The notes under the pieces were generated by a model. It worked only from the letters and a program-made list of their open reading frames with translations, was not told the DNA's origin and made no database searches. A program made the position numbers and the translations under genes. Below are positions 28,521 through 47,922 of a stretch of 64,000 bases of DNA, in pieces. Source of the stretch: Phytoseiulus persimilis (lineage: Eukaryota; Arthropoda; Arachnida; Mesostigmata; Phytoseiidae). The stretch is taken from positions 49,844,745 through 49,908,744 of the forward strand of contig CM075102.1 of assembly GCA_037576195.1 (NCBI GenBank), written 5' to 3'. Every line of letters starts with the position of its first letter. The first letter of the stretch is position 1.

Positions 28521-28650
28521 GCTTCCCAAGGATGATTTTTCGAGCATGTTGTGAGCAGAACTCATGCCCGAATATCTCAATGCTTCCCAAGGATGATTTT
28601 TCGAGCATGTTGTGAGCAGAACTCATGCCCGAATATCTCAATGCTTCCCA
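28521..28650 (+). repeat. 61-bp perfect tandem duplication upstream of FGF exon
   Basis: Two adjacent 61-bp copies (28521-28581 and 28582-28642) appear identical base for base. They are followed by the first eight bases of a third copy (28643-28650). The unit starts GCTTCCCAAGGATG and ends ATATCTCAAT. It ends about 30 bp before the acceptor of the 104-bp FGF exon. Perfect identity points to a recent duplication, or to an assembly or slippage artefact. Confidence 0.9.
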
Positions 28651-38479: not shown

Positions 38480-41400
38480 ATGTGGAGCCAACCCCCGCAA
38501 TGGCTTCAAGCTTCTCATTACGAGAATGTCCCTCACAACCAAGGTGAGTTCCATCACGAAGTGTTTGATCTGACAGGTTTCGCAGGATCGATGGCAGTAT
38601 GCGCTTGCGGAGAAGCCGTTCACGCTGGGATAGATCCTCGTATTGAAGATCTCTGAAGAATAAGCCTAGCGTCCTTGATGTTACGATCAGAGCACAGTAA
38701 TGAGCACCAGCCCTCTTTAGACTAGCTGCCCTGTGTTTTCTGGGTCAAGACGTGTCTAATTCTTCCACCTGAGGATTGAAAGCCTATGCAACTCAGCGTT
38801 TCCGTCTGTTTCTCCAAGTCGGGTCGCTCATCGAGAACTTCTGCTTGGCTCTCTCAGAGCTCTTCGAGCAGCATTTCTCAGGAAAATCCTTCATACAGTT
38901 GATTGAATATGTAGCTCCAACAAAACCTTCCATTCCGCAGTGGATTGGGCATCGCTGGCGAAGCAATGGATATCGATGCAGCAACATCCCTCGCATCCCA
39001 TGATGCCCCCCGTACTCCCACCACCGCCTGCGTATTCACCAGACGCTGCGTCTCTCGACTCTTCGGCGGAAAGCAGTATCAAGCAGGTCAGGTCATGAGA
39101 ACTCTTCGGATCCATCCGAACGTTTGCTCCCTTTGGTTCCTGTGGCAATCGTTTCACGTTCTTCCTAAGAGGCGCCGGCACGTGGAATTTGAAACAGCTC
39201 CGCGCTTCGTTGTTGTGTTCTCATATCGCGTTCGTTCCGCAGACAACGTGGTCACAGAAGCCTCAGGGGAGCAACGCGGATCTGTACTTCAAGCGTGTTG
39301 GCCAACCGCCTCCTCCGCCCCCGCCGCCACCTCCGTTACCATCGGTAGACTCCAGCATATGGGTTACGCCGCCCCCAGAATTCCTGCCAAGCACCCGCAA
39401 AGTTGTTGACTATAGCCATGGAGGATCAGGTGTTCCAAGTCGACCGTCCAGCGTTGTTATGGACTATGCGCATGGTGATGCAGCAAGTCCCACTGCTCCT
39501 GAGAAGCGTGTCGTGGATTACGGACATGGGTTCAGCCAGTCAGCAACAAACATGTCTCCACCACCCGTGATAGCCCCAGCTCCGGTGGCCCCCGCTCCTT
39601 CGACCGCAGCTACGGATTCGTCGATCGCCATTGGTACGTCGACCAAATCAAAATACATAGGAACAATCTCCAAATAGACCTGAAAACATCTCTCGATATA
39701 GCTCGCATGACGAACCGCGATGAGTCGTGTATCCGGCTTTCACGCTCGCGTAAACGCTTTAGATCACCGTTTCAATGAACTGATCCACCAATTTTCCCTT
39801 TTCCTCATCAATTTTCGAGTGCGTGTTTTGCCCTTTTCACTCGATCACGCCGGGGTTCGTTGTCTTCATTGATTTATAGTACTCTCGATTTCGAGCTCTC
39901 CGGGCTCGGAGTGGGCGTCACCGAAGAGTCGGGCTCAACCTGCGGAATTAGTATGACGATGAGCAACCTCTCGATTCAGACGCCATGAAGCGGAAGAATC
40001 TGCCAGCGTGGATTCGTGACGGTCTAGAGAAAATGGAGCGAGAAAAGCTGAAGAAAAAAGAGGAGGAAGCTCGCAGGAGGAGAATAGAATCGTCCAAGAA
40101 GCCGCTGTGGGCACAGGAAGGTATGGGAATGATCCAACAGGACCCAAAAAAATTGCCGAATCAGGTCGCCTAGATGTCGTCGCCGAAACTAACTCAGGAG
40201 CACTTGAAAGTATTCTACTGAGGGGTAACTCCGATCATTACTATCAGACGAAGAAGAGGCAGCAGAGGTCGACCCGGAACGCGGATCAACATTGCGAAGC
40301 AATGGCAGACGTGAAGAAGAGTCCGATGAAGAACTTCCAGACGTGGAACCATCTCATGCCGTTGAAGAGCCAAGTCCAAATGCCAAGAATGCCGATTCCG
40401 AACAGCGGTTCCGGGAAGTCACTCCCCAGTTGATAATGCTAAGTCCTGAAGAGAAAGAACTACAATTCGCGCTCAACGTGAGTGCGCGTGCCAGTGTCAT
40501 ATCAAATGCTGACTCTCAGCGATTCTCCAGTTCCGGAGAAGCCTGTGATGGATTGCTCGCGCCAGCTAACAACCGGGTCCTTTGCGCCCAGGTGAAGAGA
40601 CTCATGACCGAAATCTTGATGTCGGTCCTGCAGTTCGAAACCGCGGAAGTTGCTCAAGAGGAAATACGCCGCGCTCGCAACCGAGTGTCTACAAAGCCTA
40701 AAAAAGTTACAACAGCACTGGCCAGCATTGTTGGATTAGGTGACTTAAATGTTTACACGCTTCCATCACTCACTCTCTATACTCTGGAAGCTTCCTTGGA
40801 ATGATGGCGAATCCGTCCTCCACAGCTGGCTACTCTGACTCAGATGCATCCGATGACGACGATCAGGGTCGTGGCTCCAGCAGCCGGAAAGAGGCGGGAA
40901 ACGACGATTCGGATTTGGAAGAACGCATAAGAATTCGACGCAGAGAATTTCGGAAGTGGGAGGAATCTGCCATGAAAGCGCTCGACGAGAAGGAGAGGGA
41001 GCAACGGCGGAAACTCATCGGAGAAGAGCGTGAAGAGTCGCCGAGTCCTGTCCATCATGACAGTCGGATGTCACAGCGGACGCCGTCGCCGAAAGCTCCT
41101 CCTCAGAAATCGAGAGACGATCGTTCTGCCTCGAGGTCTCCCAAAATCACCCGTAGAGATTTCCCAGATAGAATCCAGGACAGGGTATTGAATTCAGGTC
41201 AGAGTCCCACCGCCCAGAACTGGCCTAGTTGTGCCATAATTGCCATCTTCCTCCCACGGTGGATAGGATAATGTGCTGTTAATTCTGACGGGAAATTCGT
41301 ACTTGATCCCAGATGTTGACCACAAAAGACGCTCAAGATCCCGGAGTCGCACGAAGGAGCACCAAAAGAAACAGAAAACAAAACGAACCAGTTCCCGGAG

Positions 41401-45031: not shown

Positions 45032-45039
45032 GTCGTCAG
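45032..45039 (+). repeat. Left 8-bp target-site duplication (GTCGTCAG)
   Basis: The octamer GTCGTCAG lies immediately before the left terminus (TAGAGATGG) of the inverted-repeat element and is repeated directly after its right terminus at 46227-46234. An 8-bp duplication is the hallmark of hAT-superfamily insertion. Confidence 0.9.
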
Positions 45040-46226
45040 TAGAGATGGATTTTAGAACAACGGAACAACGGCGTTGTACTGCAACGTTATGGGTCTATTC
45101 CTCAGCATACGTTGTAACAACGTGTGTTCAGCCTACGGGAATTCTCGTTGTGAAAAAACGGGGATTTAGGAATGAAAAAAAACAAAGTTTCTCGACGCGA
45201 GAATGGAGACAACACTGACGATGATCTTTGCTGGAAGTATGAGCCGAATATGTGCGCCCCACTTGCTTTTAAGGAGGGTTGTCTTCGGCGTGACACTTGG
45301 CTTCTGAGAATCACACTCAATATCCGGCCGGATCACAGCATCACGCTCTGAACTCGACGGGACTAATCGACGGAAAGGAAGAGGAGCGTGATGCCGTGAT
45401 CCTCATCAGGATCTCGCTCAGAAACCAAATATCATCACGCTTTACTAAGCCTATCGAGTGGAGGGCGTGATACCGAGATCCAGGTCGAGATCTTGCTCAG
45501 AAACCACCGGATCACGCTATACGCGCTACCAAGTGTTTGACTGGAGCCGTGATACCGTGATTCGGGTCGAGATCACAGCTCCAGTCGAACACTTCGTGGA
45601 GCGTGATCCGGTGGTTTCTGAGCAAGATCTCGATCCGGATCACGGTGTCACAGCTCCAGTCAACACTTAGTCGAGCGTGATCCGGTGGTTTCTTAGCGAG
45701 ATCCCGATCCGGATAACGGTATCACAGCTCCAGTCAAACACTTGGTGGAGAGTGATCCGGTTGTTTCTGAGCGAGATCTCGATCTGGATCACAGTATCAC
45801 GCCCTCCAGTCGATAGGCTTAGTAGAGCGTGATGGAATTCGGTTTCTGAGAGAGATCCTGATCAGGATCACGGCATCACGCTCCTCTTCCTTTCCGTCGA
45901 TAAGTCCCTCCGAATTCAGGGCGTGATGCCGTGATCTGGCCGGATATTGAGTGTGATCCTCAGAAGCCAAGTACCACGCCAAAGACCACCCTCCTCAAAA
46001 GCAGATGGGGCGCTCAGATTCGGCTCATACTTTCAGCAAAGATCATCGTCAGTGTTGTCTCCATTCTCGCGTCGAGAAACTTCGGTTTTTCTATTCCCAA
46101 CCCCCCGTTTTTTCACAACGAGTATTCCCATAGATTTGACGCACGTTGTTACAACGTATGCTGGAGCATACGCCCATAAAGTTGCAGTGCAACGCCGTTG
46201 TTCCGTTGCTCTAAAATCCATCTCTA
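45040..46226. mobile_element. Non-autonomous hAT-like foldback element, 1187 bp
   Basis: The element begins TAGAGATGGATTTTAGA and ends with the inverse complement TCTAAAATCCATCTCTA. It is flanked by a perfect 8-bp duplication GTCGTCAG. Termini of the form TAGAG plus an 8-bp duplication fit hAT elements (Y-A-R-N-G ends). The inverted repeats are far longer than usual: nearly both halves are complementary, about 190 bp clearly alignable from each end with scattered mismatches, then about 70 bp spacers and a GTGATCC/GGATCAC-rich core in opposite orientations. No transposase frame is present, so it would depend on a source element elsewhere. It sits between NUS1 and parvin. Confidence 0.9.
45599..45895 (+). 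repeat. About 75-bp tandem units in the core of the hAT-like element
   Basis: Four diverged head-to-tail copies of 74-80 bp, each starting GAGCGTGATCCGG or a close variant and containing GATCTCGATCCGGATCACGG and then CAGCTCCAGTC. The same unit occurs in inverse orientation on the left side (about 45385-45598), so the core is a palindromic satellite-like array inside the transposon. Confidence 0.8.
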
Positions 46227-46234
46227 GTCGTCAG
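46227..46234 (+). repeat. Right 8-bp target-site duplication (GTCGTCAG)
   Basis: Direct repeat of the octamer at 45032-45039, immediately after the right terminus of the hAT-like element. Confidence 0.9.
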
Positions 46235-47922
46235 TCATTGGGACCCGATCATTTGAACAGTGCTTATCGAATGAATGAAGTTTCACAGCCACACTTGGCT
46301 GCCAAACTGGCGGCGAAGCGGGAGGTAGTGTGTTGAGGTGCTGCTCATGGGTGCGCAGACAGGACTGCGTGGAAAGTACGAGCTCTTGGCCAAACAATGC
46401 AGAGTGTCCAATCTCGAACGGCGGCACTTTTCTCAATCATTTCTCTCCCAAGATCATACGCGCATCCGATTTGCCGTTTGAGATCTGAGTTCGCTGGCGG
46501 GTGGAAAAAGAGTATTGGCGGGTAGGCCCAGTGGTGGATCCAGGAGTGACTCAAGGGGGGGCGGTGGAAGATTTTTGATGGAACCTATGACTTCCCCCCC
46601 TTGCTTTCGGTGGTCATAACTGGGACATTTAGTTTCCGGCTCAAAAAATAAGGGAGCATACGCTGTCATAGAACTTGGGAGGGGCATCCAAACCTTGACA
46701 GAATCGAATTTGGGAGTTCTGTTCCCGCGAAAAATCCCACCATGCTGGGACTCAAGGCTCGCCGTCGTGACCATCGGTAACATACTATCCACAGAGGACT
46801 GTACAGTCGATTCCAGCGGATAAGAGACCAATGACTTAACACCGAGAGCAGACTTCAACGCCCATGAACACCGTCAAGTTATCGATTCGGCTTTGTTGGA
46901 ATCGACTGTCTAGTCTTTTGCGGTCAGTATTGGACCTAGTCAGTACTGGACGAGTCGACCCGGAACTCCCCAAGTGACACAGAACACACGGAGCGTCCAC
47001 TTCAACTTCAACTGTGTTAGCATTGAGCTCAGATAGAGGGAATCCCTCTAGTTGAGGGGGCCACTCCGTATGTCACTCGAAAAAAAATCGAGGGGGGCCA
47101 TCCAGTAGAACTCATGAGTGGGAGAGACCACGTGGAGACGAAGTAACGCGCCTCTCCGAACAAAATTAGCATTCCTCGAATATCGGCAGCTGACCGACGG
47201 GACCCACCTAAGCACGATTAAGATGCCCCTTCACTCTCAAGTATAATACTGCTGGAAAACGGCACCCACACTCCGTGGAATAATCGATCTGTTCGGTACT
47301 ATGTTCCGTGATTGTTTGGGAGAAAATGAGTTTCCGAAACGATTCTGCGCTGTCGAATGATTTTCATCGTCCCCTCATACGCCTGGATGGGGGAGCCCGA
47401 GAGCTATCCCTCCTTCCTCGCAAACCCGAAGTCCGCTTTCCAACGACTAATGGAATCCAATCGCGTGAGCGCTGCTTGAGCGGCAGATGTCCCTTTGAAG
47501 AATTCATCCATTCGATAAACACGGCTCAGCCCTAGAGCGAGCCGAATGTAGCTCGACATCAACTGCTGGATGCCCCATAGCCCATGGCTGCTCCTCACTC
47601 CCGGATATATCACGCTTGAGGACTGCACGTGGTAGCCCACCGATATTCGCTCCCAATAGCTGTCGATGTACAATGACGCGTTCATGTACGGCGGGAATCA
47701 TTGTCGGAGGACAAGGGCGGTGCTGATGCAGGCTGTCTGCTGCTCGCCACTTCCCCTCTATTTATTCCTTTTATGTTCTAGCCAATGTTTCTGTGTAGGC
47801 GAAGAGCTACCATAGGAGAGCTACGAAAACATCGGGCTCAGTGGTCAGCTGTTGCTTCGGTCAGTGTTATCCCTATTGCGCTATCTTTGAAGCCAGCAGT
47901 TCTCATCAGATAGTTCCACGAA
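46235..47922. other. Intergenic upstream of parvin; possible degraded repeat
   Basis: No gene is supported. Around 46535-46610 and 47020-47110 there are G- or C-homopolymer-rich tracts (for example CAGTGGTGGATCCAGG followed by a G run, and GAGGGGGGCC) of the kind seen at ends of old DNA transposons. I could not pair them as inverted repeats. The parvin promoter should lie just before 47923. Confidence 0.4.

Follow-up and report, generated by a model that had tools for sequence, protein, structure and literature searches.

A 1187-bp element at positions 45040-46226 of the window, the 64-kb stretch of Phytoseiulus persimilis DNA analysed here, is in our judgement probably a foldback DNA transposon of the non-autonomous type, with hAT as its most likely superfamily. 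Copies of its family are dispersed in the host genome and are associated with target-site duplications, from which we infer that the family has moved.

Structure of the element in the window

The element is bounded by an exact octamer, GTCGTCAG, found at 45032-45039 and again at 46227-46234, abutting TAGAGATGG...CCATCTCTA. Extension to either side meets a mismatch at the ninth base, so the duplication is exactly 8 bp long. The two ends of the window copy are identical over their first 17 bases, TAGAGATGGATTTTAGA, and the end sequence of the family reads TAGAGATGGATTTYAGAACAACGG. A scan for direct 8-mer pairs lying 100-6000 bp apart in the window returned 7322, two of them with inverted 9-mer ends matching at 8/9 or better, and the sole 9/9 case is the foldback element.

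The inversion extends over hundreds of base pairs. The reverse complement aligns to the element over positions 1-1187 at 83% (gapped), with inverted arms of 365 and 141 nt that are 88% and 86% alike, respectively, and no other inverted repeat reaching 80 nt was reported within the 64-kb window (seed 11). Folded as single-stranded DNA, the element forms essentially one long hairpin of -554.7 kcal/mol, a value that stands without a shuffle comparison at such length. The longest stop-free frame is 97 codons.

The left outer arm (45040-45393, plus strand) is a terminal inverted repeat and flanking domain that starts with TAGAGATGGATTTTAGA. It is followed by two core units of 78-82 bp in minus orientation (45394-45553), a turn separating the oppositely oriented units (45554-45571), four units of 73-78 bp in plus orientation that make up a GTGATCC-rich tandem array (45572-45873), and the right outer arm (45874-46226, minus strand), the other terminal inverted repeat, which ends in CCATCTCTA. 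Tandem Repeats Finder (TRF) gives a 75-bp unit at 4.1 copies over 45572-45884, and unit mapping on both strands gives a core of 2 minus and 4 plus units. A previous sequence-only reading of this DNA had described identical flanking octamers, inverted ends, two arms taking up nearly the whole length and a core of about 75-bp units in opposite orientations, all of which are borne out here. Its coordinates, 45032-46234, are correct as the span including both duplications but not as those of the element itself.

Elsewhere in the window, which has a GC content of about 50%, a 61-bp unit is present as two tandem copies, 100% identical, at 28521-28650, and a PNISR domain match lies at 40229-40801. 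A further repeat, starting CAGTGGTGGATCCAGG, begins 302 bp past the end of the element and occupies 46529-46900 and beyond; no far end of it was recognised within the window. In the genome, with 40 of 152 candidates scored, 35 of at least 41 other match rows to this repeat start within about 12 bases of the same point. This sharply defined start and the CAGTG end, which we take to be a hAT-like end motif, suggest by sequence that this repeat may be another hAT-like family.

Dispersed copies and their insertion sites

A search of the host genome (181 Mb, 127 contigs) with the element gave 78 match rows, grouped by hand into 28 places that are mostly fragments. The outcome that the sequence-only reading had named as refuting it, no further copies genome-wide, thus failed to appear. 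Six copies have both ends recognisable, two of them badly decayed: the window copy, C1:2915760-2916984 (C1:2.92M), C24:27655-29196 (C24), C1:4425434-4427049 (C1:4.43M) and the two decayed copies, which are adjacent at C101. A further end at C1:2261903 has 0 mismatches to the end pattern. It has about 55 bp in common with the window ends at 79-81% and continues into weakly unit-like sequence (unit scores of 22 on one strand and 19 on the other, where shuffled sequence reaches at most 16); the far end of this copy was not found. Five short arm matches at C1:34271228, 34286285, 34302245, 34318048 and 34332927 (G000) are spaced 14.9-16.0 kb apart, as if a fragment of the family rides inside a tandem array of 15-16-kb units.

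The flanks of the four main copies are mutually unrelated, with two exceptions. Those of C1:2.92M and C1:4.43M have one short repeat in common, and the right flank of the window copy (46240-46497) is 65% alike to the left flank of C24 over 281 aligned columns, both reading outward, the likeness beginning 14 and 4 bases from the element. Judged by this resemblance, it is as if the window and C24 copies had hit the same kind of low-copy repeat. The other two flanks of the pair gave no such likeness, and no empty site could be derived for the window copy from them; the 640-bp left flank of the window copy is present at a single place in the assembly and so offers no empty site either. Between the flanks of C24 and C1:4.43M no match was found (1500 bp a side).

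Among the copies with both ends, an exact duplication is present only in the window. The duplication of C24, GTCCCGCC/GTCGCAGC, agrees at 6/8 positions, the flanks of C1:4.43M, CCCAGTGG/CCAGTGAG, are alike only with a one-base shift, and no duplication was recognised at the C101 copies. The immediate flanks of C1:2.92M, TACCCATG/ACTCATCT, show no duplication at first sight. The left tip of this copy carries an unrelated element of 744 bp with inverted ends of its own (117 bp, 81%), and once these 744 bp are passed over, the target repeat has ACGCATCT to the left of the copy and ACTCATCT to its right, a match of 7/8. A paralogue of this target repeat (L010, 1027-1150) is continuous, with no insertion, and represents an empty site. 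An alternative reading of the same locus is one larger insertion with a 14-bp duplication. The lodged element itself lies at about 1517-2260 of L008 (C1:2.915M), with inverted ends GG(C/G)TATACGACATTTGGACCAG. The earlier description of the element as a foldback transposon with a target-site duplication is upheld by the dispersed copies, their different flanks and the one paralogous empty site.

These observations also bear on whether the element is a transposon at all. Its single long hairpin, its satellite-like core and the family's presence at only a few tens of places in the genome would suit a palindromic segmental duplication, a palindromic satellite or a hairpin-RNA locus. Against such an origin stand the exact duplication at sharp ends, the dispersed copies with different flanks, the uninterrupted paralogue of one copy's target repeat and the C1:2.26M end, which is common to otherwise different sequence, and we regard it as the least probable of the readings considered, with hardly any weight. 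A foldback transposon of this shape may later have been put to use as hairpin RNA.

The tandem subrepeats vary in number from copy to copy, all four main copies being different: the window copy has 2 minus and 4 plus units, and the corresponding minus and plus counts are 5 and 2 for C1:2.92M, 8 and 3 for C24, 9 and 3 for C1:4.43M, and 2 and 3 for the first decayed C101 copy (counts omit pieces below 45 bp, of which C24 and C1:4.43M have one each, of 29 bp). When C24 is aligned with C1:4.43M, 1515 of 1542 columns (98.2%) are identical, and the single gap in the alignment, 74 bp or one unit, falls inside the minus array. A search of the genome with three units returned at least 29 matches, located at family places or as short pieces, with no long satellite array among them.

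The divergence between the two arms of a copy (K2P over about 330 bp) is 0.135 in the window, 0.110 at C1:2.92M, 0.060 at C1:4.43M and 0.050 at C24, and the arms of the four main copies differ today at 5-12% of sites. Comparison of C24 with C1:4.43M shows left arms that are 99.1% alike and right arms that are 97.3% alike, whereas left and right arms within either copy are 94-95% alike. Since arms are closer between these copies than within a copy, they were already distinct before C24 and C1:4.43M moved. Re-copying of one arm from the other (homogenisation) at each move is therefore rejected, and the arms are inherited as they are. The tree of the arms is weak, with 1 of its 10 inner branches starred. 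C24 and C1:4.43M are the youngest two copies, and the window copy looks old and is probably immobile.

Superfamily assignment and the search for a transposase partner

The ends of the window copy open with TAGAG, which we take to fit the hAT-type YARNG terminal motif and which is mutated in some copies, for example to TGGAG or AAGAG. Behind the tips, the first 150 bp of the left arm (45040-45189, plus strand) and of the right arm (46077-46226, minus strand) hold 7 and 6 CAACG/CGTTG motifs against about 0.2 in shuffles, a count reached by 0 of 2000 shuffles in either arm, with 0 motifs at arm positions 151-330. All 13 arms examined have 3-7 motifs in their first 150 bp and 0 beyond (the remainder scanned to position 330, in one arm to 241); these arms are related and so do not amount to 13 independent observations. 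Within the first 150 bp, conservation is somewhat higher in the motif columns than in the remainder (0.932 against 0.886), an excess reached by 4 of 149 circular shifts, or by 13 of 149 without the C101 arms, and no excess is seen for the outermost 13 columns (0.882 against 0.886 for the others in this stretch). Short subterminal repeats near both tips are a hAT feature, and we infer that the CAACG cluster is where a transposase binds. In Hermes, the subterminal repeats are bound by the BED domains of the transposase (excerpt of PMC10368747).

The length of the target-site duplication points the same way, with 8 of 8 bases agreeing in the window, 7 of 8 at C1:2.92M and 6 of 8 at C24. The preference of Hermes for duplications of the form nTnnnnAn, as given in the same excerpt (PMC10368747), is matched by the window octamer GTCGTCAG and not by the duplications of C24, C1:2.92M and C1:4.43M. 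The genome has at least 145 matches to the hAT dimerisation domain (150 of 444 candidates scored), which means that hAT sequences exist in it. Short terminal inverted repeats (TIRs), a usual but not a defining hAT feature, are absent from the element, which is inverted over its whole length; the excerpted sources put hAT TIRs at 5-27 bp (PMC3517528) or 10-25 bp (PMC3942097), in agreement with what the earlier reading had said of them.

A Mutator (MULE) foldback like Tetris and Tm1, with a duplication that is 8 bp by happenstance, is the rival with the most in its favour. Most foldbacks seem to be Mutator elements, Tetris having been placed there on duplications of 8-10 bp (excerpt of PMC4079207), and those of Tm1 are 8-10 bp long, mostly 9, in 45 of 53 elements (excerpt of PMC3169594). 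The genome also has at least 150 MULE-domain match rows, most of them free of stops and 3 below the curated cut-off (150 of 220 candidates scored). On the other side, the window duplication is exactly 8 bp with the ninth base unmatched either side, and the dense short subterminal repeats fit hAT, in a comparison made with the hAT side only. The terminal TAGAGATGG, which we take to resemble hAT ends, also counts against Mutator. On balance, we consider a Mutator origin unlikely, if deserving of attention.

That the element is a P-superfamily foldback resembling Galileo appears very improbable. Galileo has long foldback-like TIRs and P elements too make 8-bp duplications, but those of Galileo itself are 7 bp long (excerpt of PMC4168063). 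The genome gave no match to PF21787 (TNP-like_RNaseH_N), a weak point given that control genomes also gave none. This domain we take to be that of the P-type transposase, and the end sequence of the element is, as far as we can judge, unlike P ends. hAT is the likely and best-supported superfamily, and is unproven. The hAT assignment made in the sequence-only reading stands as far as the end sequence, the 8-bp duplication and the subterminal repeats go; counting against it are the failure to find an autonomous partner and the imperfect duplications of the other copies.

That reading had proposed looking for an autonomous element that has the same first 20 bp and encodes a hAT transposase. The partner search, run from 38 exact and 82 looser end sites and confined to the 145 hAT-domain positions, found no element with family ends and a transposase. 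The exact sites, defined by TAGAGATGGATT, compare with 7 for a reversed control pattern, and the looser ones (0-3 mismatches in 21 bases) with 24 for the control. Two of the exact sites lie within 10 kb of a hAT hit, which in either case is on the outer side; three of the looser sites do so, and at one only, C2:4.09M, is the hit on the inner side. This last candidate (L073, 3901 bases) was judged to be due to chance, on a stretch that is short: the family end is matched over its first 11 bases only, and the far-end candidates listed have at most 4 of 8 flanking bases in common.

At C2:9.80-9.81M (L038-L040), end-like sites face each other 10.3 kb apart; their flanks are unmatched and there is no scored hAT hit nearby. 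Two of these loci, L038 and L039 (C2:9.797M and 9.803M), are 93% alike, each with a family end and identical 20 outside bases, and are a duplicated array of other repeats around one family end. CAGAGATGAA motifs were present at 6 of 30 hAT loci scanned (L042-L046 and L052), where they precede the hAT domain on its N-terminal side by 113-274 bp. Their outer 8 bases are identical within each related set, so that they are probably coding sequence rather than TIRs, and they were discarded as support for hAT. At L068, a motif similar to CAGAGATGAA lies 832 bp beyond the far side of the hAT domain.

Symmetric ends and comparison with known elements

As a non-autonomous element, it was probably moved by cut-and-paste with the transposase supplied in trans. 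If the element is a hAT foldback, a hAT transposase encoded elsewhere would bind the CAACG motifs clustered in the outermost 110 bp or so at either tip, cut at TAGAGATGG and paste the element with an 8-bp stagger. The arms could have originated in break repair, by inversion of one end onto the other. The number of core units may vary through unequal exchange or slippage.

Such a scheme meets a difficulty in the behaviour of Hermes, in which symmetrized left ends leave little mobility and symmetrized right ends none (excerpt of PMC10368747). The present family has mirror-image ends across the whole subterminal cluster, yet its copies are dispersed. Either the transposase of the family has no need for asymmetry, or the difference between the arms or the lopsided core supplies it, or the family is not hAT. 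We put forward tentatively, as a specific proposal more likely to be wrong than right, that both ends of this hAT foldback are mirror images including the binding cluster, that a hAT transposase mobilises symmetric ends, unlike that of Hermes, and that the lopsided core of 75-bp units, which differs between all main copies, serves as a spacer or as the source of asymmetry.

Among the designs compared, Tetris of Drosophila virilis is the closest published one (excerpt of PMC4079207). Like the present family, it is a non-coding foldback with an outer flanking domain followed by tandem repeats of variable number; the excerpt reports three complete copies, 8-9-bp duplications, no conserved open reading frame and no partner found. 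A difference of one repeat unit separates two near-identical alleles in Tetris and two loci here. The Tetris repeats are about 220 bp long against 75 bp here, a middle domain is present where our oppositely oriented units almost meet, and the repeats form satellite arrays of kilobase size, of which there was none here among the unit matches listed; its authors suggest Mutator (PMC4079207). Tm1 of Meloidogyne, a Mutator/foldback element, resembles our family in its composite TIRs with variable tandem subrepeats, the two TIRs of an element averaging 93% alike, and differs in its 13-15-bp subrepeats, its mostly 9-bp duplications and the putative transposase of some members (excerpt of PMC3169594).

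Galileo, a P-superfamily element of Drosophila, likewise has long foldback-like TIRs (excerpt of PMC4168063; see also PMC3688188 and PMC3573991), which contain several transposase binding sites according to the title of PMC3688188; in contrast to our family, it makes 7-bp duplications and has a known transposase (PMC4168063). On the hAT side, the Drosophila hAT MITEs Mar and Vege (610 and 884 bp) are non-coding with 8-bp duplications, as here, but have TIRs of 11-12 bp, and the excerpt of PMC3517528 makes no mention of foldback arms. Hermes shares with our element the 8-bp duplications and the multiple short subterminal repeats near both tips, but encodes a transposase, has 17-bp TIRs and needs ends that differ (excerpt of PMC10368747).

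A keyword search of the open-access literature on foldback and hAT elements (titles and the starts of abstracts, with repeat databases outside its scope) gave no hAT foldback of such build among the matches listed; to this extent it bears on the view of the sequence-only reading that the form is probably undescribed for the species. Repeat libraries do contain non-autonomous hAT families whose TIRs span some hundred base pairs, and for this reason we make no claim of a new kind: the element represents a new family of an already known kind.

For the window itself the consequence is small, the insertion being old and probably immobile. Foldbacks are of interest because they can seed satellite DNA and inversions, and they have so far mostly been tied to Mutator. 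A hAT-type foldback, if true, would mean that this shape arises in another superfamily besides Mutator, and the family would provide a natural example of symmetric ends on a hAT substrate, which the work on Hermes makes open to testing.
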